Assembly (NCBI GenBank): GCA_028015205.1
Contig: CM051514.1
Location: 37,836,150 to 37,900,149, forward strand
Source of the DNA: Mytilisepta virgata
Taxonomy: Eukaryota > Mollusca > Bivalvia > Mytilida > Mytilidae
Reading direction: 5' to 3'
DNA: 64,000 nucleotides
How positions within the stretch are numbered: position 1 is the first letter of the stretch; each line of letters starts with the position of its first letter. The position numbers and the translations under genes were made by a program. Positions 3,701-64,000 of this stretch are shown piece by piece. The notes beneath the pieces were generated by a model that was not told the origin of the DNA, ran no database searches, and saw nothing but the letters and a program-made list of their open reading frames with translations.

Positions 3701-6700
3701 CATGAATAAATTTACTGAAAACTTAAATCGAAAAAAGCAATATCACATCACGGTCAAATTTTGACTTAATACTTGACAGACATATGATTCACGTGCAGTG
3801 GTTTAATAAAAGAATGACAGTTTGCGGGCAAGAAAAAAAAATATTGATAGGTTTTAAGCTTGTCTGATGAGTCTTAGGCATCTTGTGCATAAAAATTGGT
3901 ATCATAGAATTTACTGCAAGATTATCGTACATTAATTTACAATGCAATAGCTTACTACAATTCAGAGCTAACAAACTTTTATTTAATATTGCCTTGCTTT
4001 GTCTAAAATCTCTTATATATTCTTTTTGAGACAAACACCAAAATGACAAATGTCCATTTTATTAATCACCGTTACATGTAATGTACTTATCATTCAAGAA
4101 AAAAGAAATTTGTTTAAGGCCGATAGTTATCCGTTTAACAGAGGAATGCTCACCAATATTGGATACCAGCTTGCTATGGAAGACTATAGGTATGATTGTA
4201 TTATTGTCCATGATGTTGATCTGTTACCGGAAGACGACAGAAACTTGTATTTTTGTAGCAATAAATCAGTGAACCACATGGCTGGTAGAATGGAACGCCA
4301 TAAGTACAGGTAAGAACAAATCTTTATTCCTACTACTTCTACGTGTCTAGCTGAAAGCCTATACTTATGGACACGGTTTGATAGTGTGTTGGAACAAGCC
4401 ATAAAGCTGCTGTTTTAAATTTTGAATAAAGCTCATTTCTCTTAAAACAGGTTTATTTTACTTGTAAAAAAGACAGTGACTAAGTTGTGCGCAGTTTTCC
4501 AAGGAAAGGTAAAACGGCAGAAATAATTATGCAGAAACTCTAAGATATCGCTATCTGACCTTCTGCGATCCCCACCTACCAAGACAAACACTAAATGAAC
4601 AAGTGTGTAGGACCAAAAAATAATACAACAAAATTAATAACCACAAAGCTTAATATATAAAGAAAGACAACCACTTAAAATTCACTGTCATATCTTGCAA
4701 TTGGGGCATACACACTTACAATGCAGACTGCAAGTGAAATCTTGAACTCAGTACAGTTTCTATCTAATTTAGATTAAAGAAAAATTAAACATCATTTAAA
4801 AAATCATGTCTAACTAATCAGCATTCCTCACATCCAAACAAAAATGTAAGAAGAAACAACAACGAAAATGATGTACATAGACTCAGCTTCAAACGAAACA
4901 TTATGTAAAAAAAAGAAAAAAAAGTTAAAACAAAACCTCATCAGATGTTAGAATCTTGCTTTAGGTTAAATTATTTAGTTTTTAACTCTTTTGTCATTTT
5001 ATAACAGAACATTTTTTGGATTGTGTAAGTATCACTTTCACACCAGAATCCACATGTTAGCAGCTGACCTGGTGATATTGACTCTTGAGACTCAATGGTA
5101 ACAACTGACTTTCATGTGTTATATGTGCACATTTCAACAAACCAGCACTCAAAGCTGAAAATGTTGAAAGCCGAAAAAATAAGCAAAATGTCATACAACA
5201 TAACAAAATTTCATATTACCAAATACGTTAAACCTATATATATATTTATCAATTACGGACTTTGAATCGGGTCAATACAATATATATGGACCTGGTAGAA
5301 TGATATCGACCGAGATCGATATCAACCTAACAGGTCTATTTATAATGTGTTGGCCGAATTAAAAGTCTTTAATTGTTATACTAAATATGCACTATCTGTT
5401 TTCAAAAAACCTCCTCAGCACTTTCAAACAAGAATATGTCAAATGAGCATTTTGATAGTTATCCACGTAGACAATGAAATATAACGTGAAACAGATTTAA
5501 TCAAATAAAATGGAAAAACTCTACATTTTGAATCCGGATCTAATGTTAGTAATATGGAGTCAATGTGCTTTTACAAGAGGTCAATACATGAAATATCCTG
5601 GTACATGTAATCATGTGACAAAACTAACCAATGAGAAAACATGTAATAAGTAAATATATAGCTATGCTGGAGGAGGAGGAATAAATTAACCAATTTTTTT
5701 ACAATACATCTGCAAACGAATATCTAAACAATAAGATTTAAAAAGAACATGATTATTGTAAAAAAATCTCGGTATTCCATTTTTAAACAGTTTACCATAT
5801 CCAGGGTTCGCTGGTGGAATAACCTCAATGACTACTGAACAGTTCAGGAAAAGTAATGGATTTTCAAACACATTCTTTGGTTGGGGTGGAGAGGATGACA
5901 ATTTTAAAACAAGGTACAAAGCTCTACATGTATAGCATGTTTTCTTGATCTGTAAAATGTATACTATGTGCTCCTAATGCTTCATAAACTTATTTCCTGG
6001 TAAAAAAAATTGTGGCTTTGATAAAATAATACACATTTCAAAAAAAAAAGAAAAGCCAGATTCTGAAATATAACATGTTTTAAATTGTTGGAAGCAAAAT
6101 GTTCAAGCGTTCATTTCTATAGAGTGAATTCATAACACCGAAAATTTACTCTCGTTAAAAGTTACGGAAAAAGACGCAGTTAACGTTTTTATTGAAAAAA
6201 ACACTTTTTTTATTTCATCATTTTTTTCTATAAACAAGACAGTTTATGCAATTGTATAGAACCTGTACTGGGGCATAAAATTGTATTTAAATTAGATATT
6301 TAAATAGTGTATAATGTATTAGTGTTCGTTCATTCTTTGTGCATGTAATTATGTAGGTTGAACAATGCTGGGTTCCTCATCAGAAGACCTTTGGAGATAT
6401 TTTCTCATTGTGGAGACATTGAACACGAAAAGGCTAAACCTGGCAAACATAGGTAATTTAAAGTAATCTACTAATTTGCAGTGTAATGTTTGTAGATGTA
6501 TGTTTATTGTGACATTATTTTTCTTTATAACATTATAGAAAATTGTATGAAGATAACAGAGCATGGTGGGAAAATGTTCCAAACAAATAAAACATTTTAA
6601 TAGTTTGAAAACGTTTCGTTTTCTGATATTGCATGATAGGTTAGGTTACTTAACATTGGCCTACGCCGTTACAGCGAAAAAAAAAATCCGTTCTTCACCC

Positions 6701-8116
6701 GGTTGTTTGAACAAGGGTTAAATTTAACCATTGGTTAAAAGTAGTGCGTTTCTTTACAATTTTACCGTCGGTTAAATTTAACGATGGGTTAAATATGTTG
6801 AACAACTGGGCCCTGTGGGTCACGAAGATTCATTTCCTACACATGACAAATGATTCTTGGAGTACAAGAACATATGATAGCTTTTCTAATAATGTCTCAT
6901 AACCGAAACGTATCTTAATTAACACAAGTGAAATGAAAGTTTTATTGTATTAGGTATAAAGTTATGCGAAAGGCAAAGGAAATGTGGAAATTTGAAGGAT
7001 TGAACAGTTTGCGATACCAGCTACTAAAAACGGAAAAGAAAAAATTGTATATTTGGATCTATGTGAAAATAGATAAGGTGAGTTACCATGCACAGTATAC
7101 AGCACGTGTAACTGTTTCTTTTCTGAACAAAACGTTTAAATCTTGCATTGGTGATAATGTTTACCATATATTAAAAGCATTCAAGCAAACCATTTGTTGT
7201 AAAATTTACGACGTTTTAGATTAATGAACTTCCAACCTCCTTTTAAAACAGACTGGGGCACTTTGAATTTGTACTTGCCTGTCAGTTCTTAAGAACTTTA
7301 AAATACTCTATTCCGAAAAGGATACATTGTTCCCATCAATATCTACTCTTCTCTTGGATAAATACATGTAAAACATGTGTACATTTATATTTCTTTTGAT
7401 ATTTCAGAATGTATTTAATATATTCTGGGGCCTCGGTGGCCGAGTGGTCTAGGTAGTTCGTCATGACTACTAATGATCACTAGCCTGTCAACGCTGGGGT
7501 TGTGAGTTCGAATCTCACCTGTGGCGGGGTGTGTTCGACTCCGACCTTAATTGACAAGGATTGCCAATTTTCCTACCGAAGGTCGGTGGTTCACTCCGGG
7601 TACTCCGGCTTCCTCCACCAATAAAAACTGGCCGCCGCGAAATGGCCAAATGTGCTGAAAACGGCGTTAAACCCCAACTAAACAAACAAACAATAATATA
7701 TTCATGAATAGTTCTTATTGAAGCTGAATAAATCATTATTGTCTTCCCTCATTTCATAATGAGTATTCTGTCAAAGATACAAAGACAATAACAGTCATTA
7801 CTCCAATAAAAGACCGCCCGGTTTCAGTTAAAATAAAATGGTACACGAAGTGAAGCATGGAAGTTGTCATGGTCGAAAATAATTTAGAAGTGGTAAAGAG
7901 TGATAAGTACCCACTTCCACGGAATCCATCTTCTGTATCCAATGTACATGTATATGTACATATTTATTGTGACAGTTTCAGAAAAATCTCATAATTGAGA
8001 GTTAATTTATCTCGCGTGTCCGTTGAAGAAACCAAAAAGAACATGTAATTACCTAACTTACTTTTTTACTTTTTCAGAGTGTTGTTGGTAATCTTGAAGA
8101 AGTTAAACTTGCTTGA
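693..8116 (+). CDS. Beta-1,4-galactosyltransferase family enzyme, copy A (8 coding exons, 367 aa)
   Basis: Type II Golgi glycosyltransferase expected to transfer Gal or GalNAc from a UDP-sugar in beta-1,4 linkage. Coding exons: 693-728, 1952-2219, 2809-3035, 4119-4309, 5791-5913, 6357-6452, 6954-7077, 8078-8116; all introns are GT-AG, phases agree, and the sum is 1104 nt ending in TGA. Residues 1-20 are basic and cytosolic, about 21-39 a membrane anchor, then a stem. Seen motifs: VALIVPYRNRE, the FNRG block (183-186), the HDVD metal site (D209-x-D211), LPYPGFAGG (242-250), GWGGEDD (271-277) and a downstream His (H305) matching the family's metal-binding His. NxS/T sites occur in the stem. The start was chosen because MKSMMRSNKRSQ has a good context and splices in phase onto the anchor exon. 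Length fits the family. The 289-equivalent position is Phe (F247), so Gal versus GalNAc donor use is open. Confidence 0.93.
1010..1245 (+). repeat. LINE-like 3' tail fragment in intron 1 of galactosyltransferase A
   Basis: The stretch around 1074-1190 (TTTTAGTTTTCAGTGTTTATT, GTCTTCCCAGGTTTGTC, TAATGGATTGCAG) matches 19729-19845 downstream of a coding remnant, and more weakly 22220-22300. The frames through it (939-1139, 1057-1275) are therefore repeat-derived, not genes. Confidence 0.5.
6698..6810. repeat. Small palindromic element (MITE-like) in intron 6, copy A
   Basis: The ends are inverted repeats: CCCGGTTGTTTGAACA on the left and its near complement ending TGTTGAACAACTGGG on the right. 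Internally GGTTAAATTTAACC-type palindromes repeat. Length is about 113 bp. It is also present in copy B (36442-36554), so it predates the duplication. Confidence 0.55.
7427..7692 (+). repeat. tRNA-derived SINE (family 1), copy A
   Basis: The head has a pol III A box (TGGCCGAGTGG) and B box (GTTCGAATC) with a long variable-arm-like spacing, as in Ser/Leu-type tRNAs. A non-tRNA body of about 150 bp follows, ending in an AAACAAACAAAC tail. A second member of the family lies 1.2 kb downstream. It sits in the last intron of the galactosyltransferase gene. The minus-strand open frame through it (7515-7736) is not a gene. Confidence 0.8.
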
Positions 8117-16800: not shown

Positions 16801-19800
16801 GCAAAGTTATCTTATAAATTGTATCACAAAATACCTCAATAAATTTGATGCACGGTATGACCATTTCCTTGACTGATAACTCATCATGTAATGATGAATT
16901 AATAAGCACAATCATAAAAAATCCAAAAGTCTAAAGAAGTCATCTAATGTTTTTTCTGTAAATATAGGAATATTCACTTTAATCTTGACGAAAGTTCAGC
17001 TGCTCACACATAACAAGATACGTGTACCAAACGTCAGTTAATTTAACGGAAAAAAATTAATATGGTATTTATGTTTACCTGCTTTTGGAAAGGAACACAA
17101 GAATACATCCGATTCCCTGCACTCTAAATCCTTTCTCTCTTGAAATTTTCTTTCCGAACCTGGGTATACTCCTGGAAATGGTGGCCACAGAAGACCATCG
17201 TACTCAATAGGTTTTCCTATTTTCTTGATCTCTTCAGATATCTTTGTAATGTCGCTAATTGAAGAGAAAAAAATCGATTGTAATTATCCTGTTATTATAA
17301 GATTAAAAAAGGACATTGGTTTCATATGTTCACCTGAATCACGAATTAAAACATTTATCATCCAGTGATAATCCTCGAAAATTGGAAATATCAACATTGA
17401 GGATCTTCGAAAAATATTTTCACTGGACCACGAAAATGTAAATTAAATAGCAGGTACTCCAACATAGAAAGGCAGAAATATTTTTTAAATATCATTTAAT
17501 TTTTCAACATTTAGATAAATATTATCCATCATGTATGCACATCGAAATGTAAAACATAACAAACAACATTGATTTTCTTGTATATCATTATTGTTATCTA
17601 TTTGTTATACAAAATACAATGCCTTTTAGAATCTGTAGATTTTATCATCTTTTATCATCTTTTAAGATATACTAATATTGAATGAGATGTTATCTCATCA
17701 ACACATACATCACAGTGTGGGAGCGGAAATAAACATGTTTTCTGTCAGTTGTTAAGTTGAGATTTTGTATAGCAGCAAATCGGTCACTTGAAGGAAGATC
17801 GCTCATACTTAATAATAGTTTTTGTATTCTACACAGATTTTATGGCAATTTTAGGTATGTTTGCCTCCTTTGACACTTGGCTGTTTACAGGCCTATAAAA
17901 TTACATGAACATTTGTTCACAAATATGATTAATATCACTTTTATCAAGCTTTGATCACGATGCTTATTACATTTAGTGTTTGAAATTTTGACTTTAAAAC
18001 TGAATAAGTAAAAATTTAATGGTTTTAAAATTATTTTGCATATAAAATGAAGTAAATTACTTGCAAACAAACAACACATCATTTTTCTGACTGTATAGGT
18101 GCTTGTATGTTTACTGTATGGGCGCTTGCAATTTTTTTGTACAGTCACTTGTTGCAATATAATGTACTTGGACTATAATATGGGGTAATTTCATGAATAT
18201 TAGGAAACACTGTCCGTAGTAGAATATAATATTCTACGAAGGGACATTATTTCCCAATTTTGTGTAATAGCGCCTTCATTGTATATCAAAGCAAATAAGA
18301 CCTTCCAGCCAACCAAGAAAACGATGAGCACTCAGTGCAATATCAGCGCTAATTTTTGGTTGTGTTTAACAAGGAATATTACATTGGTATACAACAAAAA
18401 TTCATATAGAGATAGAGTATTATGCGAATGATATCATAAAATAGTCATTTCGGTCACATGGAATAATTATATAAGGAATATTTCCAATTTTTGAACAGTT
18501 TATACGATATAACCTGGTTTGGGTCAATTTACGCATAATTAACTAGCGGTTTATGAATGCCATAAACTGGCCCAAACCATGTTATTGAAGTATAACCTGT
18601 TCAAAAATTGGAAACATTCCTTATAATTTAATTTCCAAACAGAAGTACAATGATCCCTTGATTCAAGAATCAATAATGACATTGGACTTAATTTACAAGT
18701 GGCGGATTAATTAAAGACCAAACCAGGTTATACGGTATAACCAATGTTGGTCTATACTGTTCATCCAATCAAATTAAATTAATAGACACTAATGGTTTTT
18801 GATACTGGCTTTATCACGTTGAATATCGGTTGAGACGAAAGCGAGACATATATTCAAATTGATGAAGTCAATATTTAGTACATTAGTGTCTATTATTATT
18901 TCTCCTATTCCTGACGTGTTTAATCGGTGGGATAAAAATACATAATATCTTTAACCACTTCCTGGTGGTTAAATTTCTACGTGGGAATTACCGCCCTTTT
19001 TTCTACAGTTATTAGAACGATAAACTAGAGAAGTCCCGAAATGACCTCTATGTAAACAAACTACATAGCAACGACATTTTCTTGAGGTTTTTGTCGAAAA
19101 TCATAGGAGAAACAGATTCCCGTTCAATTTACTCCTTGTGGAATTTCTCCACACTCTAAAGGCTCGCGTGTTGAAAATCGAAAATTTAACTATCTCGGGG
19201 TGGATAAATTCCATAACTCACTCGTACCTGAAGAAGAATTTATTTTTATCGGCGAAGCATCCGCTTTTGACGTCATAATGTATTGCATGATATTTTCGAG
19301 TGTCATGAATACTGAAAAATGACTGACTATTATATCAAAAGGGAAAAGTGTGAATTGCCGATAAACCATTACTCTTATCTTTATTTGCTGCCCCCATGTG
19401 AGCCACGAAAATACAAACATTGAACAAAGAAACAAACACAAAGTCAATGATACAAAGTATTTATAAATGTAAAACTCAAATAAGTCAAATATATTTGTAA
19501 TTCATACGTTATAAATGTACTTTGAGCTGCCTACTGGAGCATTAAGATTCAACTTGTAAAACTGTTTAACCAGGGTTTTATCAGGGATAAGTTGATGTCA
19601 TCACTTAGGAAATTTTACGGTCGTCATCACGGATTGATTGACCGTTACAGTGTTCCAATATCTAAGATGATGTTGGACCTGTTCCCAATGTCGTAACATT
19701 TCATGTACCTCCACCGATTTGTTTTTTTAGTTTTCAGTGTTTATTTGTTGTTCATGTGGTTGTTCATTTGTCTTCCCGAGTTTTGTCTGTCTAATGGATT

Positions 19801-36500: not shown

Positions 36501-37847
36501 CAATTTTACCGTCGGTTAAATTTAACGATGGGTTAAATATGTTGAACAACTGGGCCCTGTGGGTCACGAAGATTCATTTCCTACACATGACAAATGATTC
36601 TTGGAGTACAAGAACATATGATAGCTTTTCTAATAATGTCTCATAACCGAAACGTATCTTAATTAACACAAGTGAAATGAAAGTTTTATTGTATTAGGTA
36701 TAAAGTTATGCGAAAGGCAAAGGAAATGTGGAAATTTGAAGGATTGAACAGTTTGCGATACCAGCTACTAAAAAAGGAAAAGAAAAAATTGTATATTTGG
36801 ATCTATGTGAAAATAGATAAGGTGAGTTACCATGCACAGTATACAGCACGTGTAACTGTTTCTTTTCTGAACAAAACGTTTAAATCTTGCATTGGTGATA
36901 ATGTTTACCATATATTAAAAGCATTCAAGCAAACCATTTGTTGTAAAATTTACGACGTTTTAGATTAATGAACTTCCAACCTCCTTTTAAAACAGACTGG
37001 GGCACTTTGAATTTGTACTTGCCTGTCAGTTCTTAAGAACTTTAAAATATTCTATTCCGAAAAGGATACATTGTTCCCATCAATATCTACTCTTCTCTTG
37101 GATAAATACATGTAAAACATGTGTACATTTATATTTCTTTTGATATTTCAGTATTTAATATATTCAGGGGCCTCGGTGGCCGAGTGGTCTAGGTAGTTCG
37201 TCATGACTACTAATGATCACTAGCCTGTCAACGCTGGGGTTGTGAGTTCGAATCTCACCTGTGGCGGGGTGTGTTCGACTCCGACCTTAATTGACAAGGA
37301 TTGCCAATTTTCCTACCGAAGGTCGGTGGTTCTCTCCGGCTTCCTCCACCAATAAAAACTGGCCGCCGCGAAATGGCCAAATGTGCTGAAAACGGCGTTA
37401 AACCCCAACTAAACTAACAAACAATAATATATTCATGAATAGTTCTTATTGAAGCTGAATAAATCATTATTGTCTTCCTTCATTTCATAATGAGTATTCT
37501 GTCAAAGATACAAAGACAATAACACTCATTACTCCTATAAAAGACCGCCCGGTTTCAGTTAAAATAAAATGGTACACGAAGTGAAGCATGGAAGTTGTCA
37601 TGGTCGAAAATAATTTAGAAGTGGTAAAGAGTGATAAGTACCCACTTCCACGGAATCCATCTTCTGTATCCAATGTACATGTATATGTACATATTTATTG
37701 TGACAGTTTCAGAAAAATCTCATAATTGAGAGTTAATTTATCTCGCGTGTCCGTTGAAGAAACCAAAAAGAACATGTAATTACCTAACTTACTTTTTTAC
37801 TTTTTCAGAGTGTTGTTGGTAATCTTGAAGAAGTTAAACTTGCTTGA
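30569..37847 (+). CDS. Beta-1,4-galactosyltransferase family enzyme, copy B (8 coding exons, 367 aa)
   Basis: Paralogue of the gene at 693-8116. Coding exons: 30569-30604, 31833-32100, 32531-32757, 33840-34030, 35520-35642, 36090-36185, 36698-36821, 37809-37847; lengths are identical to copy A (36, 268, 227, 191, 123, 96, 124, 39 nt), with all GT-AG sites kept. By eye only three coding differences exist: Ser7 to Gly in exon 1, one silent change in exon 4, and Thr to Lys in exon 7 (within QLLKTEKKK). Anchor, D209-x-D211, GWGGEDD and H305 are all kept, so both copies should be functional enzymes. Poly(A) signal AATAAA at 37857-37862. Confidence 0.93.
36442..36554. repeat. Small palindromic element (MITE-like), copy B
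   Basis: Copy B partner of 6698-6810 in the same intron, with the same inverted CCCGGTTGTT / AACAACTGGG ends. Confidence 0.55.
37167..37422 (+). repeat. tRNA-derived SINE (family 1), copy B
   Basis: Partner of 7427-7692, with a short deletion (GGTTCTCTCCGGCTTCC here against a longer version with GGGTACTCC in copy A). Pol III A and B boxes are intact. Confidence 0.8.
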
Positions 37848-41487: not shown

Positions 41488-42510
41488 ATGACTCGAATAA
41501 TACGACGAACATGGATTATTCTTATGGTCCTATTGTTTTATACAATCTTAATGGTCATAACCATAGCTTCCATTAGCTTGATGAGTGACAATGACAGCAC
41601 TGGTTCAAAGCTGAGGCTTCTTGAAAGCAATATTCAGTCATCCAATAAGAAAAGAACAATCAAGAACTTTAAAATTCCCCGTTTTAGTAAAACTCAAGAG
41701 TTACTTCAGCGGGAGAAGTTACCACGTGTATATACATTTTCAAATGGTTCGTGGAAATTATCTGATGTATGCAAACCATTGACAGAATACATAGACGATG
41801 ATAACTTTTATTTAACTACAGCAAATTCTGAAGCAGGTTCAGTAAATCTGTACGTTCATAATCCAAAATATGACGCAATTTCCGGAACAATTCAAAAACG
41901 TCGGTCTTTTGAGTCTGAAAACGTTGATGCTGTTATCTCCATGTTAAGGAAAGACCAAATGTTATCGTTAATTGATATCGGGACAAATATAGGAATACAC
42001 GCACTTTCAGCGGCCTTACTCGGCAGACAAGTATTAGCCATTGATGCCGGAAAAGAAAATATCGAACATGTGTGCGCATCAATTCAGCATAATAAATTTA
42101 AAAATGTTGCTTTAGTTTATAATGCGCTTTCCGACAGTCATGGAAAGGTTAAATTTACACACGGAATAGAGGGGGACTTCGGATTAGCTCATGTTGATGC
42201 AGATGGTATTGCAACAAAAATGAATTCTAGGTTTGAGAAATATTTCAAAAACGGTATAACAACAACAACCGATGCTGTTAAAATGGATGACATACTTAGC
42301 CTACCTCGTTTAACGTTTTTTCGAAAATTTATTATAAAGATGGATGTAGAAGGATACAAACATCGAGTTTTGCTTGGCGCTAAGAATTTCATGAGGAAAA
42401 AACGTAACTTAGTCAAAGGAATCTTTATGGAGTGGCAATGGTTTTCCGGACGCGATGCTGAAAATACTATAAAAACATTAATGACTTGTTGGAGCCATAC
42501 AGATTTATAG
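41488..42510 (+). CDS. Membrane-anchored FkbM-family methyltransferase, copy B (C-terminally frameshifted, 340 aa)
   Basis: SAM-dependent methyltransferase of the FkbM group, probably Golgi- or ER-anchored because residues about 8-31 form one hydrophobic segment after a basic N-terminus (type II). It is a single coding exon; an acceptor (TTTTTTCTTCAG) lies about 15 bp upstream, so a 5'UTR exon is likely. Motifs: SLIDIGTNIGIHALSAAL (160-177, SAM-binding motif I), the following acidic LAIDA (183-187), and KMDVEGYKHRVLLGA (284-298), the typical FkbM block. Compared with copy A, 7 bases are missing at about codon 336, so the frame ends SHTDL instead of continuing some 35 residues to NWPKDVLWLP and a stop. 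The remaining coding sequence is readable to 42602. Activity is doubtful, since the lost tail is conserved between family members. Confidence 0.85.
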   Translation: MTRIIRRTWIILMVLLFYTILMVITIASISLMSDNDSTGSKLRLLESNIQSSNKKRTIKNFKIPRFSKTQELLQREKLPRVYTFSNGSWKLSDVCKPLTEYIDDDNFYLTTANSEAGSVNLYVHNPKYDAISGTIQKRRSFESENVDAVISMLRKDQMLSLIDIGTNIGIHALSAALLGRQVLAIDAGKENIEHVCASIQHNKFKNVALVYNALSDSHGKVKFTHGIEGDFGLAHVDADGIATKMNSRFEKYFKNGITTTTDAVKMDDILSLPRLTFFRKFIIKMDVEGYKHRVLLGAKNFMRKKRNLVKGIFMEWQWFSGRDAENTIKTLMTCWSHTDL

Positions 42511-48421: not shown

Positions 48422-49414
48422 TTTAATTTCTGAACAGAAGTACAATGATCCCTTGATTCAAGAATCAATAATGACATTGGACTTAATTTACAAGTGGCGG
48501 ATTAATTAAAGACCAAACCAGGTTATACGGTATAACCAATGTTGGTCTATACTGTTCATCCAATCAAATTAAATTAATAGACACAAATGGTTTTTGATAC
48601 TGGCTTTATCACGTTGAATATCGGTTGAGACGAAAGCGAGACATATATTCAAATTGATGAAGTCAATATTTAGTACATTAGTGTCTATTATTATTTCTCC
48701 TATTCCTGACGTGTTTAATCGGTGGGATAAAAATACATAATATCTTTAACCACTTCCCGGTGGTTAATATTCTACGTGGGAATTACCGCCCTTTTTTCTA
48801 CAGTTATTAGAACGATAAACTAGAGAAGTCCCGAAATGACCTCTATGTAAACAAACTACATAGAAACGACATTTTCTTGAGGTCTTTGTCGAAAATCATA
48901 GGAGAAACAGATTCTCCTTCAATTTACTCGTTATGGAATTACTCCACACTCTAAAGGCTCGTGTGTTGAAAATCAAAAATTTAACTATCTCGGGGTGGAG
49001 AAATTCCATAACTCACTCGTACCTGAAGGAGAATTTATATTTATTGGCGAAGCATCCGCTTTTGACGTCATAATGTATTGCATGATATTTTCGAGTGTCA
49101 TGAATACTGAAAAATGACTGACTATTACATCAAAAGGAAAAAGTGTGAATTGCCGATAAACTAAATTTCCAGACCTTTAGACATCAAAAGGAGGTTACTC
49201 AAATTACTGATATCTATATTTGCTATCCCCATGTGGGCCACGAAAATACAAACATTGAACAAAGAAACAAACACAAAGTCAATGATACAAAGTATTTATC
49301 AATGTAAAAGTCAAATAAGACAATTATATTTGTTATTCATACGTTATAAATGTACTTTGAGCTGCCTACTGGAGCATTAAGATTCAACTTGTAAAACTGT
49401 CTAACCAGGGTTTT

Positions 49415-50330: not shown

Positions 50331-53300
50331 CAGTATTTCTTTTTTAAAGGAGTGACAATGAGTGAAAAGTTAGTTGTAATAAAAACTGAAGATTTGGATA
50401 TAACTGTATTCATTTGGTTTGTCGAAACAGATTGCTGATAATTTATCTTGTGTCTCGACAAATCAAAATAGTCAGAAATACCAAACAGCATATCGTTTCA
50501 AGAATTATATCTTAGACTTTGAAATTTGTTTTTCTTCTTACAAATGTAAATGATTATATTAAGTAAGAGATATTTAAATGTGCGAGACTTTCAGTAGATT
50601 AAACATCACGTCATCAAAAGCATATTTTAAAAGTTGTGAACTGACTTTCTAGTAATTTTTTTAATTCAATATTAAAGAAACGTTTTATAATGGTGAAAAA
50701 TTTTAATCGATCACAAACGAGATTTCCTCGTACATTTTGTCAGAAATAATTTGTGATATTTGTTTAACAACCTTATGAACAAGAAAATATGAAGCCGCAT
50801 GACACTCTTTACTAAAAAGAAAATAATTCCTTCAACAATGTTAAACTAATGTAAATGACATGAACATACTGTTTCGTGTGATGATTGATGATCGACTTGA
50901 TTTTTAAAACTGAAAACAAAATTTTGAAAGAATCAAAAATGAATATCAACACGTTTTCCTGTTGTAAATTTCTAACTAGAATAAATATCAAGATTTTTAG
51001 TTTTCAACTTGTTATCGTTTTTAATTTTATTTCATTCCAATGTAAAATTTATTTGTAAGGAGCTTAAAAGATTATTTAGTTAAAAAATTAATAAAACGTT
51101 TATCTTTAAAATTTCATATCTATTGAATGAAAAATATCCAATGGTTGAAGTTACATGTGTTTTATTCAGAGTATAATTGAAATATTTTTGATTAAACATA
51201 TCTGTCTTATTTAGAACATTTGAATATTACTTAATTATTCAATAAAAGAATGTCAACAATTTGTTTTCAAAGAAGCGTTTAATAAAAACGAATTAAGTTT
51301 CATTCTCTTAATACTAGGAAAAGCAGAACTATATATTTCACCAAGTTTACTTTCTTAATTTATTCTTAATTCAAAAATTAACTTTATGTAATTTTTTTCA
51401 AAATTTTCTTTGTCTTCCTCCTACATTTTATCGGTTGATTTCTTATTTGTTCAAATATTTACTATTCGCTCTTTATAAATAGGAGATAGTTTCCGATTCT
51501 GAAAAACTATTTGAAAAATTATCCTAATATCTTTCAAAGGTAATTTTGTTTTTTAAATTGATTTTATTACAAAATCTTTTAACTAGAAATGGATACGAAA
51601 ATGTATTCACTTTTCATTTTGATCATAAAAAATTAAATCTCGATTCACAATTTTTTTGTTCAAGCATAGATATATATTTCTCAGTTTTCAAACATTGGAA
51701 ACTATTATAGAGGTTGATGAAAATTTGATACATTCACCAAAAAAAAGATTGTCATATAACACGCAAAAACAACTACATTCTAAAAAAACGTTTTAATTTC
51801 TTCAAATATAAAATCCATTTGTTAAGTTAAGATTTGGGAAAAAAAGATTTGTTTACTAGGAACAAGGAGGTCCTAATAGAACTTCCTTGCTAGGAAGTAA
51901 CACCAAACTGTACTCCTGTTTTAATTTGATGATTCAAATTTGATTATTTATTCTTAAAGTTTCCACAAAAATTATAGTTCAAACATTGATATATATATAT
52001 ACTTTGGTATCAAATACTGAATACTATTAAAGAGCTTGATAAAGATTTAATGCAGTCCAAAATAAAAAAGGAAAATCCAGGATTTCCTTTTTATCGACTA
52101 TGTTTTGGCATTTTCTATAAATTTACATAAATTGGCAACTTTTTTTATGATTTTGTCTGACATTTTTCAACTGACATGAGAATGGTAAGACTAGGTGGTA
52201 TTCTCTGATAGAATTGGGTATAAAAAATGAAAACCTTCAGAAATAGCATTAAATAATATCAATCTTATTTGAGAAGATGATTTCTCAAAATACTATAGAC
52301 ATACAGACATAGTTCTTCTAAAAACTTTGTTCCAGGTTAAATGGTTAGTACGTATAAAACCATTATCTTGTATCTGAGAAGAAAAATCTTCCAGAAAGGA
52401 AGTTGAATTTTACTGAAAGTGCATCATCATTATTATTTTCAGAAGAATTTTCTTCTTAAATATCATAATTTGAGAAAAATTTTCTCCAGTTGTAGCTTCA
52501 GACTAAAGATATAAAATAAAAGGATCATTAACAAAAGCGCTATCTATATACTTTTTTGTAAGAATATTCCAGTCTTTTGGCGGTATTTTCCCCATGTATT
52601 ATGTAATTTAACCCATAACCCTCTTGGAAACAATCACTGAATATCGGCAAAATAATACAGAAGAGTCAAAACAGTGGGAAAATTTATTCAAACTCATGAG
52701 AATGGAACATAACAAACAATTGCCACAAGGATACATGTACAACTAAAAGAATAAACTAGAGAATAAGACACGGATGAATATAGGTCATATCTTGACCAAA
52801 GGTTCTGTACTGTATATATTATGATTAATCAAGAAGCCGGATTATTATGTATGGTTTATTAAAATTTAATGAATGCATATACGAAAACCACGAAAATTAA
52901 TGCTATACATTGTATAAATCCTTAGTGTTGAATTTATTGTTTCCATGTTGAATAATTTTCTCTGACTATATAAGAAAAAATAAGATAAAAGTTGTGTCGG
53001 AATGTGTATGAGTAATACCAGTTTCAGCCAATTGTTTTACAGTTACAGGATTTGTTTCTTTACTACATGTGCTTCGACGTATTAAATCCTGCTTATATAT
53101 CACTACAGTTAATGTAAAAATTCAGAAAATACGAAAAGGCTGGGGTAATGAGCTTCAACAGTACAACCAACAAAACCACGAAACGCTGTGATAGCTACTG
53201 GAAATTGGTCCATGTTTTATGTCCTCTAGCATGTTGACAGATACTCTTTTGGCTAGTGAAACTTGTTCGCGCCATTCTATTTCCTTTCAACATTTTCAAA

Positions 53301-55570
53301 TAAAATATTCTGTACTTTCATCCGAACACTGCAATGCTGACCTGAAATTTGTAATAATAATAGTAATAAAACTGGTAAAATAAATTCATCTAAACATTAT
53401 CCTGCCCATTATTGGAAGTATGTAACTTTGAACAAATTCAAAGTTTCAATTTTGATAAAAGGCATTTTGTCTACTAGAATTAAAAGTATCTTGATATACT
53501 TATGCATTGAAAATTTACAATAGTGTATTTCAAAAGTTTTAAAGTTTCTTTTTTTTTCTAACTTAATTTATGTGGCTGAATACCGGATGAAAAAAATCCA
53601 CCACACTCTTCTATGTAATTAAGCCACATCAAATTGATATTTAGTTCTTTGGATTTCGCCGCTCCCATTTTTAGAATATTTAATTAAGAAATAAATTGCG
53701 GCCTTATTTTGCAAAAATGCTGAACATTCGTCCCAAATTCCTCATTTTTCAATACATTAAAAATGAAAAAGTTGTTCTCCCGCTACTGAAATTACGTAAA
53801 AGTTAGCATTTTCCCCATTTTTTGCAATATTTTACTTTACAAAATCAGTGCCCGCACATAAATTTGATCTTCGCCTAAAAACTAATCCTCAAGAAAAAAA
53901 AATAAAATTTTGATCTCCCCGGGCGCCCAAGATACCCAAAAATCCGAAAAATTAAAATTCAATTTGGTGTGGCTCTACTATTAAGAATATCTTTTACTTT
54001 AGCCTCGATTTCATGAAATTTGAGAGCTCATAATTACAAACATTATGAACATAGCTTATCAATCACTTCCCGCCGAATTAATGTGTGCTGGTACAGATGT
54101 ACCTATATGTACAGTGTTATTTTTCTGCTTACAAATTAAAGAATACTCGGATTTGGACAAAATCTTGGTGCATTCGTTTTAGGAAATTAAGATTACTTTA
54201 CTATATAAAATAAATATCATTATAGATATAAAAGTTCAAATACATTACACATATGAAAGAATGTTTTGTAAAAATAATTTTTGGGGGGGCGAAGTTAACA
54301 ACTTATATTTGCTCGTTACGGAAAAAATATAAAAAATGATGTTTTGCATACGTACATGTATATGTAAAAATTCTTTCAAGAGTAACCGTTTAATATTTTA
54401 CGGTTGGGGAGAACGACAAGAATAATTTTTAATACTGAAATTGTTTCCCGTTTTTCTGAACCAGACATCCTTTCAGCACGTAATCGCGTCCAACTTTGTT
54501 TTTAATCCTTTCTTTTCACCCAGTTTTTGATATTGCCTTTTCTTAACTGAAATTTGAAACCTAGCTCTGGTTGTTGTTTTCCCTTAAAGTTTAAAATAGT
54601 TACCATAATATTAATAATTTACCAGATTTCAGGGTTCTTCACATATAACACCACGCCAAACAACAATTAAAATATATTATCTGAAATAATCTAGTATATT
54701 GTAATTTGGATGGTAACACTGATTTCTCGGCAATAGTATTTATTTATTAAACAAGAACTTTGTTATTTCATGATTTTTTTTCATATCAATTACTTAAAAA
54801 CAGTCTTAAAAAAAAGAAGAAGAAAAAATTGGGAGAATGTCATTGTACAAATGAACATTTTTATAACCGTCAACTTTTACACATAAATCATTTTAACTGA
54901 CACATACATCGTAATACACCCTTTAATTTCCAAAGGGTAAACTACAGTTGAGTCCGATTAACTTGTGTTGAAGGAGAGCCTACATATATTTAAAAACAAA
55001 AACAAAATGAACTTCTATTTTCTCCCCCAAAGCAACCCATGGTTAATGTGAAGGAAAATTTACAGTCATGTTTACATTCGGGATTAGAGGATTTTTTTTT
55101 TATAAACGTTTGCTTTAAAATAATTGTATAACACTCAGATCCTATCCAATTAAAAAATTATTTTAATGGGCCAGTAATACATGTTGTCAGTACCGGCGAA
55201 CCCACAAAAAAATGACAACATTTCTATAAAAATTAAAAAAGTTTATGGTATATTATAATAACCTATATGAACACATGATCAAGACTATATGGCGATGCCA
55301 ATTGTTTTAGATATTTAAAAGCAAAGTAGTAGATAATCGTTTTCTTACATGTTTTGTTTATGAAGTCATTTATTAATTTTTTTGATTTGTAGGTTGACAC
55401 TGTTTATACGAAAAACGGAACTTCGGTTATGATATATCTGTTATGCTTAAATCTTACCTTAATTTAATTTTGGTAAATTCCTGATCACAAAATATTGTTG
55501 AAGTCACAACTTTTGCCCTTAATAAATCCATTGTTTATTTTACACATCACCGTATACTATCTTTCATTAG
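50331..55570. other. Very AT-rich intergenic stretch
   Basis: About 5 kb without a convincing coding frame on either strand, dominated by A and T runs and short poly-purine patches. No element ends or tandem arrays stood out. Confidence 0.45.
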
Positions 55571-55735
55571 AGGTTGGGGAAGTCAGTATATATAAATACA
55601 TCAGGTGTGCTTTGTTGAAACTGTTATCAGGTTTACTGGCTGGAGGTAATCTCTTCAGATCAGAAATGGACAGGAATATTTTGTTTACAAAAGATAACAT
55701 CAAATATACCGATTATGTTTTTGCATTAAATACAG
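55571..55735 (+). CDS. Candidate isolated coding exon (55 codons, unidentified)
   Basis: Bounded by a pyrimidine-rich acceptor (ATCTTTCATTAG) and a donor (AATACAG then GTCATG), open throughout, 165 nt with phase 1 at both ends. It encodes a non-low-complexity peptide including KLLSGLLAGGNLFRSEMD and DNIKYTDYVFALNT. The surroundings are strongly AT-rich, which makes this composition stand out. No family is recognised and no partner exons were found, so it could be an exon of a gene with long introns, a remnant, or chance. Confidence 0.25.
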
Positions 55736-58202
55736 GTCATGTTTTAATATATTTTTAAAGTACATTTATACTTCTTTAATTTTTGGTTGCCAGTTTGAAC
55801 TTTTCAGCTTTGTACACAAAATATTGCAGAAACATGCAAAATAAAAATCATTGTATTGGTGCGATTCTGTCATAACTGGTAAATGAAAATACACAGATAT
55901 ATTGTATGACTTTTAATATGACTAGTTTTTTCAATTCAGTATTTATGTATCACTTACAAACTATGATACACAAAACTGGGACTATTACATGTACAATAGT
56001 CCCAGCTCAAAATAAGTGTATAGTTGTGATTTATTTTATGACGATTACAAGTATACAACAATTAGTTTGCTAAATATATATTAATTTTCCGGTTTATTTT
56101 AAGAATTTTTGATACCAAAACATGATTTTCCCGAAAATAATTGAAAGGGACCGCCTACTGATGAGAACATAAATATGTGGTAGAGTGAATTTTGTAAATA
56201 TTTTTAGCAGAATATGGATTGATTTCTTATAAATATTAATAATTTGATATTGTTTCCAGTTTGGTAATAAAAATATGTAACTGAATATTCATTAAATGAT
56301 ATTTGATAATTTTTGTCAGTTATATTTGATAATGATAATAATTAGTATTAAATTAGATTATTTTAATTACATACTTATATTTTATATATTAAGTTAATGA
56401 CCCAAGGTTTTGTACTTTAAACCTTAACATCAAATTCTCTCATCTGATTGGTCTGCTTTGGTCATATGTTCTTTTGGGGGGAATTTCATTGTTCTTTAAT
56501 CACTCCATGAAAAATTTTCTACTTGATAAGATGCTGTTTGTAGTATAACTAAATTGAAATTGGTACCCGGAATGTCATTTGTTTTCTAGAAGGTCAGTGT
56601 CCTATGTTATCTTATAACTAACTTTATTAATAGTCATATCCTTAATATGTAGTAAAAATGAGATGGGTGAATGAATGAATGAATAAGTGAGAGATGTATG
56701 AATTTATTCTGTGTAAGAGTTGTTAAACAGATCTAAAACAAATAAAATGGTTAACAAGATTAAAATAAAGTAAAATCATAATACTATAAATAATGGTTAA
56801 TAAATACAGATTACAAATATGGGAATGTATGAATCTTCTGAATAGTCATGAAAATAAATAACATGATAATCTAAGATTTCAACAGTCTTAAATATTTAAA
56901 AAGTAATGATTTTATTCATAATCCTGATTTTAATATTTTTGTGTCAATACTGTGATCATATAGATTTGTCACAGAACACTGTGTTTATGATTGCTCAAAT
57001 TTGTTATTCAGGTTGAGATGAATATCCATAATCGATGATATGATTTAATGTACATTGAGGACCTTTGCACCTCATGTGAGGTAAGAATCATGTGTGTTAT
57101 TTTTAACCATGCTGCTTAGCTTTGCTAACAATGCTTATTTTATTTGCTATTCTAATGCTTTGTATTTTTGTTCATTTTCTTTACATTTTGTTACTAATTG
57201 AATAGTGAACATGATTAATCTCTATGTAAAATGAGGTTTAATGTATTTTTGAACTAAGAACACATATTCAGACAAGACTGATTTAATTGCTGTTCTTCAT
57301 CCTTACGTATATATTTATATGAGCTTGATAAGCTGGTAACTGTGTATTTTTCTTATTTTAAATAATACATGTATGTCTTGTACAAATGTACTGTATAGTT
57401 CAAGAGTTATCTTTCTTGCACTGGAATTTAATATTATTTTCTATTATATATTTTAGGGTCAACTCTAACTTAACTCTAATTTACATTGTTACATCTCTAC
57501 AATAAAGAATCCACGAAATAAACCAGTGTTATTTTTGTGCTTATTTCACCTGGTTTCAAATATTTCCGACTAAATATTATTTACATGTTTTACCTTCCTA
57601 TTACATGTAAATTCAGAGTTGTCCACAGCTATGGCAATTAGCTAAAAAGTAATAAACGGGTTTGCCTTAAAGTACATGTAGCTTCTTCCAAAAGTAAAAC
57701 TATCCTTTTCCTAAATAAAATTTCTAAAAGTTTGATGCTGTTCATGTAAGAATTGTAAAAGAAATTATTCCACCTTTTAACAACCTTTTACTTTGTTAAA
57801 GGAAACACAAAGGAAGTCAATCTTCTAAGGTGAATAAAACTGCAAACACTCAATGAATTTATATTTAAATGTTTAATAATATGTAGCAATTAATTTATCT
57901 TTCATTGGCAGAAATGACACAGAAAACCTCTGGAGATTGGTTCTATAGATCTAATTGCTGGACGGGACAAGAAAAATATTCCTAAAAATATTACTTTCAG
58001 ATATCGTAATTCAAAAACATTGAGGTCCTATGAATTTTAGAAACATAAATAAACTAACAATAAAATGATTCAAAATTTAAAACATTCAACTTGGCTTCAA
58101 ATTTTAAAATTATATCCGAATAAACCCCCCTTAAACTTTGGCAATCAAGTAGATTGTATGTGCATTGGTGGGAAAGAGGTTTGCGTATCTAAATGTAAAT
58201 CC
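55736..58202. other. AT-rich stretch with a GAAT microsatellite
   Basis: No coding exon is identified. A short GAAT/GAATG repeat lies at about 56666-56685. AATAAA occurs at about 57501, but without a gene to attach it to. Confidence 0.4.
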
Positions 58203-58343
58203 TTGGTGTATGGCATGGTATTGGTTGCTAAAAATTGATATTTTTCATTTAAATGGAATATATTTTATTCAAATGGTATAATTTGTCATTTAAATGCAAT
58301 AGTTTTTATTTAATTGGTATATTTCTTCATTTAAATGCAATAT

Positions 58344-58634
58344 GAGGTCGGAGATGGAAAATAAGAGAGCGAGAGAGATTCTCACTCCCTCCCCCGTCAG
58401 TAGTCGGGTCTCCGGACATTTCCGCCAGGCAACGCCGGCTCTGTGAACCAGAACATTGGGAGGAAGACGCGTCGACAAAACAGGTAATCGACGACAGGCA
58501 TGCGTCCCTCCGGCACGGAACCGGATCGGAAAGGAGACACTGGTCTGTATTTAAGGCGCCGGAGCGAAACCGAGTACGGTCGCTTCGACGGCCCAACGCG
58601 CAAAGACACAGGCAACTTTGCGATTGTTGTTCAA
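58344..58634 (-). other. ITS2 spacer segment (captured rDNA)
   Basis: Minus-strand sequence immediately 3' of the 5.8S copy. It is GC-rich and ends CTCCGACCTCA, the usual start of 28S, before changing abruptly into the CATTTAAATG array. About 290 nt, a normal size for a molluscan ITS2. Its identity rests on position and the 28S-like junction. Confidence 0.7.
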
Positions 58635-58790
58635 CCGACCCCGAGACAGGCGTGGCTTCGGGAGTGACCCAAAGCCGCAATGTGCGTTCAAAATATCGAT
58701 GTTCAATGTGTCCTGCAATTCACATTAATTCACGCAGCTGGCTGCGCTCTTCATCGATACACGAGACGAGTGATCCACCGCATAGAGAAG
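58635..58790 (-). rRNA. 5.8S rRNA (diverged copy inside a mobile element)
   Basis: On the minus strand the sequence reads GCGGTGGATCACTCG, ATCGATGAAGAGCGCAGC, GTGAATTGCAGGACACATTG and TTTGAACGCACATTGCGGC, the conserved core of metazoan 5.8S rRNA, over about 156 nt. Differences from the usual sequence (CGTCTCGTGTATCGATG where CGGCTCGTGCGTCGATG is usual) suggest a pseudogene. It is flanked by spacer-like GC-rich DNA and not by 18S or a full 28S, so it is not part of an rDNA array. Confidence 0.85.
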
Positions 58791-59040
58791 TTTCTTTCTC
58801 ATGTTTGCGGCCGGGTCTCGTCGCTGGCAACAGAGACGACGGACTGGCCTGGAGGGTAAATACGGAATCGGAGACGCTGTTACACCCTCGAGTGATTTTC
58901 TTCGTGTGTTCGAAAGGAAAAAAAAACAAAAATTCAAGTTTTTCGTCACTCCGACACGCGGGCGAGAAGGGCGCTTTTAAAGCTCGAGGGCTACCCTTCT
59001 GGCAGAATGCGTGCCGCAGCGAATTAAAGTTAAACGACAA
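58791..59040 (-). other. Partial ITS1 spacer segment (captured rDNA)
   Basis: Minus-strand sequence immediately 5' of the 5.8S copy, GC-richer than the flanks. The expected 18S 3' end (GGATCATTA) is not seen at its outer edge, so ITS1 appears truncated where the right arm begins. Confidence 0.6.
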
Positions 59041-59275
59041 ATATAGCAATTGAATAAAAACATTGCATTAAAATTACAAATTATATAAAAAAATATTGAA
59101 TTTGAATGACAAATTATATCATTTGAATAAAAAATAATCCATTTAAATGAAAAAATATACCGTTTAAATAATCAAAATATTGCATTTAAATGAAGAAATA
59201 TACCAATTAAATAAAAAATATTGCATTTAAATGAAAATATCAAATTTTTGCAACCAATACCATGCCATATTGGTG

Positions 59276-62200
59276 CAATAAATTAATGCATCTTAATTTA
59301 TGCAATTGAAATATGGTCAATAGCTTTAATTTAAACCACAAGCGGTTGAAAACGTCATACATGAGAATATTGCACTGTTTTTTTTTCAAATATGTTACAA
59401 CATACATGTGTACTCTTTAGAAATGAAAAGCACAGCACGTAAAAGTATAAGAAGCAGAGGTAACTATGCAGAGATTTAAAATAAACGCGTAAATTTATCA
59501 TAAACCTACTATTAAATAAGGTCATCTGGGTATTTGATAAAGGAGTTGTTTTCATCCAATTCATATCTCAAGTTGGAATACATGCTAAAACAATAACCCA
59601 AATCGTAAACGAGCAGATTAAAATGCCACAATATTCGAAAGGGTAGCGCCAAACAATCTATGGACAGAGCTATGCACGAGGAAGATACTATTTTCCCCAC
59701 AAGTTAAGACTTTATTATAGTAAATCGTATAAACAATTGACTATTATTAGCTATTATAAAGGATCTTTATTACCATACATATTAAAAAAAGTGTTTTTGT
59801 TCCCGAAAATGGAGAAAATGTGGAACTTTATCCTATAGCGGAATAGACTGGCGAATTCAGGTCCCAAATTTATATACATGTAAACTGTTTAAAGAGACAG
59901 ATCATAATATGCTAACTACAAGTACAACGTTTTGGTTCGAACTGACGATCTAACCTAGCCTATATCGACTTGAGAATTATTCAGATCCAAATTCAATGGC
60001 CACTTACATACTGAATCGGATCAGCGGTGAATCCATTGTGGGGGAGGACGGTACTCGGCAATCGCTCTCTCTAAACTTTCAGTAGAATTTTTATGTTATG
60101 TAAAAAAATAACAAGATCGGGACATATTCTCCACAAATTATTTCGTCTCATTTCGCTCGACATTTTCTTTTATATGAAACATGGACTTAAATACCAGATT
60201 TTGGTGGCCTCTGAGTGGCCCATTATATTTAATTTTTTAATTTGTTGTGCTGTGGTTTTTAAGCTTTTGAGTGTTTTGAGTCATGTTGTCATAGTTTTAT
60301 TAGTCTTGTGTTTGTCTCTGGGCTTATGATCAGCTTTGATACATTTGTATCATTGGAATTGCGGTTTTCCCTGAATTCTGTTTATACTTTTTTGACGAGT
60401 TGTCTCTGAGCCATATATTTTTCCACCATTGCTGAATCTTTTAATTCACTTGCAGTATTTTTTCTTCGTCGTAGATAACTTAGGAGCCAATATATGTTGG
60501 CTTCCAGGAATATTACCACTGTTTGACGACCATTTTGCGTTTAACATAATAACGAAAAAAATTATGCCTATTTTTTTATAAAAGAAATCTGGCTTATATT
60601 TGCTCTTATCTTTAAAGCTTCTGAATGCTTTGCCCCCTGGACTTACCCCATATGTACTGTGTTTATCGACAAAATGTGCACACAGCAATTATTTATGTCA
60701 TATTTATTTTATGAGATGCATGTTCATACATGTATCTGTCATAAAATTAGAACATATTTTTAGGACAGTAAGTTTTGGTATTGGTGATATAACAAATAGA
60801 AGACAATAGCAAAGATGCATGTCCTACATTGTATTAGTTCGAGATACCTCTCTGACGTCAAAAAAATGCAAGCCGTAAAGTACTAAGGGAGTAGGGCCAC
60901 TTTCCCCTTGTTTTTGTTTCACAATTACCATTGATTGTTTAATCTTCAATATTTATCTACTTTTTATCATTAACGATTGTTTAAGTGTATTTTTATCATT
61001 AATACATTCATGTTTTCTACCCGCAAAGGTCATTTATATTGACGATTTTGGTAAATTTTAATAACTTTTGGGAATATTGCCAAGAAGGACACTCAGAACC
61101 AACCCATTGTACTGTTATTGGAAATGATATACATAATGTCACATACAGCAAAATTGAAATCAATGCAGGAGTAAATTGCCCCAATCTTAAATAAGTGTCG
61201 ATTCTGGGCTAAGTAGACAATTTCCAAGTTTGATACATAGACTGTGTTCTTGTGTCCCACTTCTTTAATATTACATTACATGTACTTGATAATCATCGGG
61301 TTCAGTAAGGGTTGAATTGACAAAGAATTATTGAGGCTGAATTTACAATTCTGCAATTTTCTTAAAAAATATCCATACCAAACCTCCTACTTGATTTATA
61401 CAGTGTTTTTTATCGTGGAATTCGGAACGGTAGCATGGGGACCAGTGGGTACATAAAGTGATGTCATAGTATCGCCTAAATTAAACAAATTTTAAAGATT
61501 CCTAACATTGAGGTATACCTGATAAGTATATATTTTGACGGCTTCTATTTTTGTTTACAAACGAAGTCCATATTATGAATCTCAATTTACCAAAATTCAA
61601 ATTAAAATTCAGTACAGGAGTGTTTTAGGCTTAACAGTATAATTTACCAAATTATCATCAATATAATCAATTCTTTATATGATAAAAAATTCCTCATTGG
61701 CTTATTGATCTTCGCCAAAAACTTTTTATTTGAGACCAATTTCTATGTATATCTGAAAAATTGATAAATTACTTGTTTATTAATATGCATTTTATTCGAA
61801 AAGTCTTGAGATATCTCTGAACTAAACATGGACGGACAACTGAGAGGATCATTGATGTTATGAGGAGGTGTTTTTACGACAGCACTATTCATTTCCTTTC
61901 ATTTATTGCAAATGAGAAAAATTGTGTTCATACAAGCTTGTGTATAATTTATTTCTAAACGCAATGGAAATAAGTTTACTCTTTTTTATATATAGGTGCC
62001 GTTTTCCCTTTCCCCCCTTAATGTTATTCTAGAAGTGTACATTATTTGCTGAATTCGTATAATTTATTATTTTGATGCCAAGTTGGCCAATATGAATTTT
62101 GTGCCTTGCCAATGTTTCAGTTTAAGTTCTTATTGAAAATGTTTGCCAGTATCCCACTATCTGTCTATATGTTTTTATTTTTTGTTTTTTGTTTTTCGTA

Positions 62201-62680
62201 TACAGATGCCACGTGATTTACATGCATATAAAAAACTGAAATAGCGCTCAAATCGGAGCTAGGAATCGCCTTAGTTAAACAATATCATAATATCAGTACT
62301 CGTAATTTATAAGTATGTAACCGAAATATTTCGAACGTTTCCTTCACCCTTGAGAGGGGGTGGGCATAATTATTATTTCTTATTTATTTTTAAATCCGTA
62401 CATTCGGGCATATTTTGATTGTTTCGTCCATCAGTCACACTCAACTCCTCGGTCACGTTAGGTTTACAGATTTTATTTAGGTTTTAGAATTTTGATTGTC
62501 TAAACGGGTCAAATTTAAATTTGTTGACCTAACCTTCTCTTTTATTTGACAGTTTATTCGTTTTAGTTCTTTTCAGTATTGTAATATAGTTTATGCGGTT
62601 CCGCAATAAGGTTTTCGAATTTTGAATTTCTAAAATTGCGATTTTTAGCTTCAGTTGTGAGCTATTGCAATCACTTGGGG
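59276..62680. other. AT-rich intergenic stretch
   Basis: No convincing exon. A T-rich, retroelement-tail-like stretch lies at about 60210-60425 (TTGAGTGTTTTGAGTCATG, TTGTCTCTGAGCCATAT). The remainder holds nothing that I can identify. Confidence 0.4.
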
Positions 62681-63810
62681 TCCTCTCCTCTGAAACCACC
62701 GTGCTAATTGAGACCAAACTTTGTTGGAATGGTCCTTAAGTGGCTCCCTACCAGAATTGTGTCTGACATCCCTGACTTCCAACAGACATGGCTGCTGTGA
62801 CTAAAAATAGAAAAGCGGGCGGGGGGGGGGGGGGGTAATTTAAAAAATATTCCTCTATGAAACTACATGACCAATTAGAACCAGACTTGTCAGCAATAGT
62901 CCTGAGGAGGTCCTCTTTCAGAATTATTCCGATGGCCCAGAATGTCAACCAAGATGGCCGCAACAGTCGAACTTAGTTTAACATATGACCCTATGGGAAA
63001 ATACATTTAAAAATGTTCTTGTCTGAAACCACTAAGCCAATTGGAACTAAACTTGACAGCAATGGTTCTTTCATGGTCCTTCTTCAGACTTTAGTCCGAT
63101 GACCTGGACTGTCAACCAAGATGACCGCCAAAGCCGAACATTGTTTAACATAGGACCCTATGGGAAAATTCATTTAAAAATGTCTGAAACCACTATGCCA
63201 GTTAGAACTAGACTTGGCAGCAATGGTCCTTAGATGGTCTTCTTTCAGAAATGTGTCCGATGACCCGGACTGGCAACCAAAATTCCTGCCACAACCGAAC
63301 TTTGTTTAACATAGCACTCTATGGAAAATTCATTGAAAATCTTTTTGTCCACTGAGTCAATTTAAATCAGACTTGGCATCAATGTTCCTTAGATGGTCCT
63401 CTTTCAGAATTAATTATGTCTGATGACCTAGTCTGTCAACCAAGATGGCTACCACAGCTGAACATTGTTTAACATAGGACCCTATTGGAAAATTCATTTA
63501 AAAATCTTCGTCTGGAAACCACTTAGCCAATTGGAACTAAACTTGACAGCAATGTCATTACATGTTCCCCTTTCAGAATTTTGTCCGATGACCCGGACTG
63601 TCACCCAAGATGACTGCCACAGCCGAACATGTTTAACATTTAAAAATCTTTTTGTATGAAACCACTGAGCCAATTGGAACCAGACATGGCAGAAATTGTC
63701 CTTAGATGGTCTGTTTTAAGAATTGTTTCCAATGACCTAGACTGTTAACCAAGATGGCTGCCACAGCTGAACTTAGTTTAACACAGGACCCTATTGAAAA
63801 ATTCGTTTAA
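62680..63810. repeat. Tandem repeat array, about 7 units of roughly 165 bp
   Basis: The marker CAACCAAGATGGCYGCCACAG recurs, with variation, near 62776, 62946, 63114, 63275, 63438, 63602 and 63749 (spacings about 170, 168, 161, 163, 164, 147). Each is followed by GTTTAACATAGGACCCTATG and a block containing GAAACCACTGAGCCAATTGG and TTGGCAGCAATGGTCCTTAG. The first unit contains a G homopolymer at about 62820-62835. It is non-coding; the short frames in it are chance. Confidence 0.88.
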
Positions 63811-64000
63811 AATGGACTGTTATACTTAAAGATTTTTAGTCATGCTTAAGGTGGAAAAGTTAAATCCAGGTGAGAAATACAGGCTCATATGAGCCTCTAT
63901 TTTCATTTTTACATTGTATTTTATTTCTTCATAGAATGATGGCACTCTATATCTGTAGGCTGGCAAGAAAGTTTTTTATTTTAGACTTTCGGTAAGTATC
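63811..64000. other. Right window edge
   Basis: Unique-looking AT-rich sequence after the tandem array; nothing identifiable before the window ends. Confidence 0.3.

Follow-up and report, generated by a model that had tools for sequence, protein, structure and literature searches.

An element with an ITS-5.8S core

Within the window (the whole 64,000-nucleotide, or 64-kb, stretch of Mytilisepta virgata DNA that was analysed), an element copy with TTGGTG on either side spans positions 58209-59269, inside a larger dispersed repeat. The features of this region are listed below.

52686-63812, no strand: larger dispersed repeat holding the window copy, interrupted; its true ends may differ
58203-58208, no strand: left target-site duplication, TTGGTG, from the sequence and the family-wide 6-bp duplications
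58209-58244, plus strand: left terminal inverted repeat (TIR) with the TATGG end, 36 nt, 94% identical to its right counterpart, with the outer 20 nt exact
58209-58343, plus strand: left arm, including five subterminal repeats of 20-21 nt
58343-58349, minus strand: GACCTCA, resembling the first bases of 28S rRNA, followed by the arm; the junction is the same in the 30-core consensus
58350-58635, minus strand: ITS2-derived segment, between 5.8S and the 28S-like start
58636-58789, minus strand: putative 5.8S rRNA pseudogene (Rfam RF00002, 128.1 bits)
58790-59038, minus strand: ITS1-derived segment, beside which about 174 nt of most other copies are missing
59039-59269, plus strand: right arm, including about eight subterminal repeats of 21 nt
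59234-59269, minus strand: right terminal inverted repeat with the CCATA end
59270-59275, no strand: right target-site duplication, TTGGTG, from the sequence and the family-wide 6-bp duplications

The preliminary description had reported 20-bp terminal inverted repeats, long arms of subterminal repeats and a perfect 6-bp flanking duplication, and all three were borne out. The copy begins with TATGGCATGGTATTGGTTGC (58209-58228) and closes with the exact reverse complement (59250-59269), the inverted repeat extending to 36 nt at 94% identity; the five left and about eight right subterminal repeats make up the long arms, and TTGGTG stands intact at both flanks. BLAST joined the two arms over 137 nt at 87% identity, and several of the arm repeats are centred on CATTTAAATG. 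In its exact form this word occurs six times in the 64-kb window, each time inside the arms; with one mismatch allowed it was no commoner there than chance (13 matches, 11 expected), and therefore the word by itself is no proof. The 12-nt core of the TIR, searched in the window with up to 2 mismatches, was also not above chance (6 versus 3.6).

The same description had placed a 5.8S sequence with ITS-like flanks on the minus strand of the core, and this was confirmed over the full length of the gene: 58789-58636 matches the Rfam 5.8S rRNA model from position 1 to 154 of 154 (128.1 bits, E 5e-32), with spacer-like DNA on either side. This was the sole rRNA match above the Rfam cut-off in the 64-kb window; 18S and 28S, which flank the ITS region upstream and downstream in a unit of an rDNA array, gave no Rfam match over the cut-off there. 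The minus strand of the core runs out in CGACCTCA directly at the left arm, which agrees with the earlier claim that the core ends at the usual 28S start. We take CGACCTCA to be that start by its match to the usual 28S sequence.

An open frame also runs antisense over the core. Its 133-aa part had no Pfam match. The 235-aa frame had 321 protein matches, and the one that we compared aligns through 5.8S into both sides; judging from this one alignment, the matches are presumably antisense frames of other rDNA, and we set the frame aside as a protein gene.

Elsewhere in the window, a segment of about 29.9 kb is duplicated in tandem (1-20162 and 29876-50034; aligned pieces 92-98% identical), and both halves contain a fragment of a sulfotransferase. 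Each half also has two copies of a 265-bp repeat, perhaps a tRNA-derived SINE, within which tRNA-like matches lie at 7430-7526 and 37170-37266 (30.3 bits against the 29-bit Rfam cut-off). Positions 41488-42510 encode an FkbM methyltransferase domain (Pfam) whose best named relatives are from Mytilus edulis and M. coruscus (54-61% identity; top match overall 59%).

Copies, target sites and the surrounding repeat

To look for other copies with these arms and the same ITS core, we searched the element against its own assembly (1,034,323,453 bases in 109 contigs, about 895 Mb of them in the 13 large contigs C1-C5 and C7-C14), scoring 40 of 76 first-look candidates. This yielded at least 209 matching pieces, and 30 loci were read; the 29 loci other than the window copy were 82-94% identical to it. 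Together with 9 further stretches and two of four further loci from a 5.8S search described below (L056 and L059), this gives at least 41 loci in which part of the core is accompanied by one or both arms. By flank comparison and end sequences, the 41 loci reduce to about 26-27 insertion sites, the lower figure applying if L006 and L018, with 255 bp of common flank, are one site. Twelve loci occupy a single TTGGTG site, as judged by one or both flanks (L001, L002, L003, L004, L009, L012, L013, L015, L016, L042, L043 and L059), and three other sites are each represented by a pair of loci (L035/L036, L037/L038 and L039/L040). Both-ended copies are 541-1,545 bp long, apart from L033 (3,113 bp, with an insertion). 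In this copy on contig C12, the insertion of about 2 kb (about 2500 to 4460) has GGTCAAGGCGAAGTAATTGAA inverted ends and TTAA flanks and is apparently another DNA transposon. Outside the assembly, neither the TIR nor an ITS2 word had a match in viral contigs, and a 17-mer of the TIR, scanned on two strands over 257 Gb of genome contigs, matched 31 bacterial stretches once each, with about 30 expected by chance.

Target duplications were counted for the 20 sites at which both ends could be read, each represented by a single copy; single-ended loci were left out, as were second copies of counted sites (L002, 5/6; L003, perfect; L036; L038). The 6-bp flanks matched perfectly at 11 of the 20 sites and at 5 or more of 6 positions at 17, compared with 1 perfect and 3 near matches among 380 mispaired flanks. 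No perfect duplication of 3, 4, 5, 7, 8, 9 or 10 bp was found at the 20 sites, three of which (L008, L017 and L029) have no good duplication.

We also compared 19 joined sites with the fetched loci and the window and found uninserted paralogues with a single 6-mer for two of them, L020 and L035. The L020 insertion reads TTTTTATCCCAC-element-TCCCACCGAT, and its empty paralogues, in the window at 18899-19045 and 48694-48840 (reverse strand), read TTTTTATCCCACCGAT, with one TCCCAC. Two other relatives of this site have extra junction bases (L020:702-859) or a changed 6-mer (L010:3348). For L035, an uninserted repeat copy 1.3 kb away has one ATTGAC. A third match, for L026, covers 49 nt (window 18590-18638) and is too short to count. 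The family has spread by transposition. The proposal that a transposon family routinely carries ITS is thus supported by common arms and core, by the 6-bp duplications and by the two empty sites.

An assembly artefact or contamination, in which ITS reads were joined to a repeat, merits almost no credence as an explanation of the window copy: misassembly is unlikely because other copies exist, and at about 26-27 sites, spread over many contigs, the junctions are the same while the copies have private mutations.

The larger repeat around the window copy is discontinuous and takes up some 11 kb of the window. Most pieces of its C9, C13 and C14 relatives are 90-99% identical to it (one piece 82%), more diverged relatives on C1, C5, C7 and C14 are about 78-93% identical, and these relatives carry the element at the same TTGGTG. 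The window copy was re-copied as a passenger of the larger repeat, and the TTGGTG insertion is common to 12 loci because this repeat was duplicated together with the element that it contains. About 1.4 kb of the window (56177-57557) is absent from relatives of the host repeat such as L002, L003, L004 and L032, and at the edge of the repeat (62871-63812) there is a 161-bp satellite-like array, with related arrays in L031 and L032.

Source and decay of the ribosomal cargo

The window copy is a shortened member of the family. Among 30 aligned copies, 21 hold all or part of about 174 extra nucleotides between ITS1 and the right arm, so that the typical cargo, in rRNA sense, consists of this upstream part, ITS1, 5.8S, ITS2 and seven bases like the start of 28S, whose junction with the arm is the same in most copies. 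The upstream part is also missing in L002, L003 and L004. It was lost after insertion at the site of the window copy, because three loci of that site, L009, L013 and L043, retain it. In most aligned copies it holds TGACGTCA inside a TTTGAC..GTCAAA inverted motif, and the portion beside the right arm may be of element or rDNA origin. The stretches that adjoin ITS1 in most of 19 aligned copies (e.g., L010:2277-2465), TTTGACGTCACAAGGTCAAA (which contains the palindrome TGACGTCA) and TGCAATAATTGCA, are promoter-like in appearance.

We then searched the assembly for 5.8S, scoring 40 of 27,267 first-look candidates, and 37 matches were reported: element copies account for 35, and L057 and L058 for one each. 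In the control of this search, 9 of 14 prokaryote genomes also gave a match to the 5.8S family, 5 of them over the cut-off; a 5.8S match alone is therefore weak, and the assignment of copies rests on the common arms too. L057 (C9:63299800-63304800) is a broken rDNA unit about 93 kb from the contig end, with matches to a shortened 18S gene (819 bits), to 5.8S (77 bits) and to 28S (186 bits). L058 (C4:42490000-42495000) contains, at 2277-2586, an ITS1-5.8S fragment without arms before an unrelated tandem repeat. No intact rDNA array was found among the 37 reported matches; such an array may be absent from the assembly or lie beyond the scored candidates.

With the host's own rDNA judged from one broken unit, L057, the core could be compared with that of the species. 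The family consensus is 86% identical to L057 in 5.8S and 87% identical in the first 70 nt of ITS2, and the two have bases such as CATCGATATC in common. This likeness suggests that the cargo probably came from the rDNA of the mussel's own lineage. It is very improbable that the copies are decayed leftovers of rDNA arrays, or pseudogenes of rDNA that recombination, and no transposon, has moved. The broken unit L057 and the arm-less fragment L058 speak for such a history; against it, 35 of the 37 reported 5.8S matches lie in armed copies, with 6-bp duplications and empty sites, and the window matches 5.8S without 18S or 28S.

Divergence from the consensus over 30 rows was 4.5% in 5.8S, 5.1% in ITS2 and 6.0% in ITS1, the last figure being too high because the ends of L024 and L028 are misaligned; the upstream part, in the 21 rows having it, diverged by 0.6-8.3%. 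Within 5.8S, paired positions diverged by 4.0% and unpaired ones by 4.7%, and of the 57 changed base-pair cells, 40 were broken, 15 were kept by a one-sided change and 2 were compensated. The drift of 5.8S at almost the rate of the spacers argues that these copies are pseudogenes, apparently carried as passenger DNA without function; on that near-equal drift, together with the broken pairs, we reject a functional 5.8S in the copies. It is unlikely that the ITS-5.8S block and the upstream 174 nt or so form a mobile transcription unit whose RNA, or whose nucleolar association, aided the spread or reseeded the rDNA array.

The 30 cores gave a star-like tree; 20 of its 26 inner branches were weak, and the bootstrap was unsettled. 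A star-like tree is the expectation for a single uptake followed by a burst, and the uptake of ITS probably happened once. Nine labelled TTGGTG-site loci split on the tree, requiring 3 changes and not 1, a number as low as which was reached in 0 of 500 shuffles; given its weak branches, the tree neither shows nor excludes a single origin of the TTGGTG-site loci.

Superfamily and comparison with known systems

In complete IS3EU families the ends are TA..TA and the duplications usually 6 bp (PMC10045372); in those of rust fungi, the ends are TAYGG..CCRTA and the TIRs exceed 30 bp (PMC12730594). TATGG..CCATA was present at 16 of the 20 both-ended sites, the window copy included; in the other four (L010, L020, L028 and L041), one base is changed at one end. 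The window copy consists of arms and core, with no apparent room for a transposase. On the fit of ends, TIR length and duplication length, and with no such room, we call the family a putative non-autonomous IS3EU.

Several other classes were considered. The preliminary description had called the element foldback-like, which holds for its long repeat arms; it is not a classical Foldback, as the ends fit IS3EU better and Foldback FB elements make 9-bp target duplications, of which there was no perfect case at the 20 sites. Pokey is of the piggyBac type, and the TTAA duplication expected of it is replaced here by varied 6-mers. Polinton/Maverick elements end in AG..TC, and the ends here are TA..TA. 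Dada elements do make 6-bp duplications. So do hAT6 (PMC12730594) and Polinton (PMC10045372), and the same kind of element from one of these three superfamilies (a derivative, in the case of Polinton) is an alternative as to superfamily; we regard it as unlikely, since TATGG..CCATA fits the IS3EU signature of the rust-fungus families (PMC12730594).

Thus, the window copy very probably belongs to a family of the non-autonomous IS3EU kind that took up ITS and then spread. An ancestral element would have taken up the ITS region from the rDNA of the host lineage, probably once, either when a transposon lying within an rDNA unit or close to one came to enclose it or when gap repair with an rDNA template put ITS between IS3EU ends. 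An autonomous relative would have supplied the transposase, which, acting on the ends and subterminal repeats, would have moved the element through the genome by cut-and-paste. Where the window copy lies, the upstream part was lost after insertion, and the copy was multiplied again inside the larger repeat.

As far as our literature searches reach, an IS3EU-type family carrying a whole ITS1-5.8S-ITS2 block is new. No element of this kind was described in the titles and abstract openings of the literature retrieved on DNA transposons holding ITS or 5.8S, which does not establish absence from print, and the term IS3EU did not appear in a subset of that literature. The family documents a route by which a DNA transposon can multiply the standard barcode region of nuclear rDNA outside the array. 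Because 35 of the 37 reported 5.8S matches are transposon copies, ITS mining in this lineage could return such copies as apparent paralogues or species. Contamination of ITS barcoding and ectopic rDNA recombination, both suggested in the preliminary description, would be possible consequences.

The family can be set beside four known systems. Like the FB elements of Drosophila, it has long inverted arms of short tandem repeats; it differs in its 6-bp duplications and IS3EU-like ends, where FB makes 9-bp duplications. Like Pack-MULEs and other non-autonomous elements that capture genes, it encloses a captured host segment between transposon ends, but it belongs to another superfamily and its cargo is ribosomal spacer DNA. 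With IS3EU/GingerRoot elements it shares TA..TA and TAYGG..CCRTA ends, TIRs of more than 30 nt (36 here) and 6-bp duplications, whereas the copies here apparently lack a transposase and carry ITS1-5.8S-ITS2, a cargo unmentioned in the passages on IS3EU in the two sources (PMC10045372, PMC12730594). Pokey of Daphnia is a DNA transposon with related MITEs whose 5' repeats derive from the rDNA IGS and/or ITS, and it inserts at TTAA, also at a specific rDNA site (PMC4912750). Pokey is a precedent for the uptake of rDNA spacer by a DNA transposon; the family described here differs in its varied 6-mer duplications and in a cargo that forms one block with a full-length 5.8S. Besides Pokey, it is thus another DNA transposon with rDNA spacer sequence, one whose uptake of rDNA can be tested by comparing mussel species.
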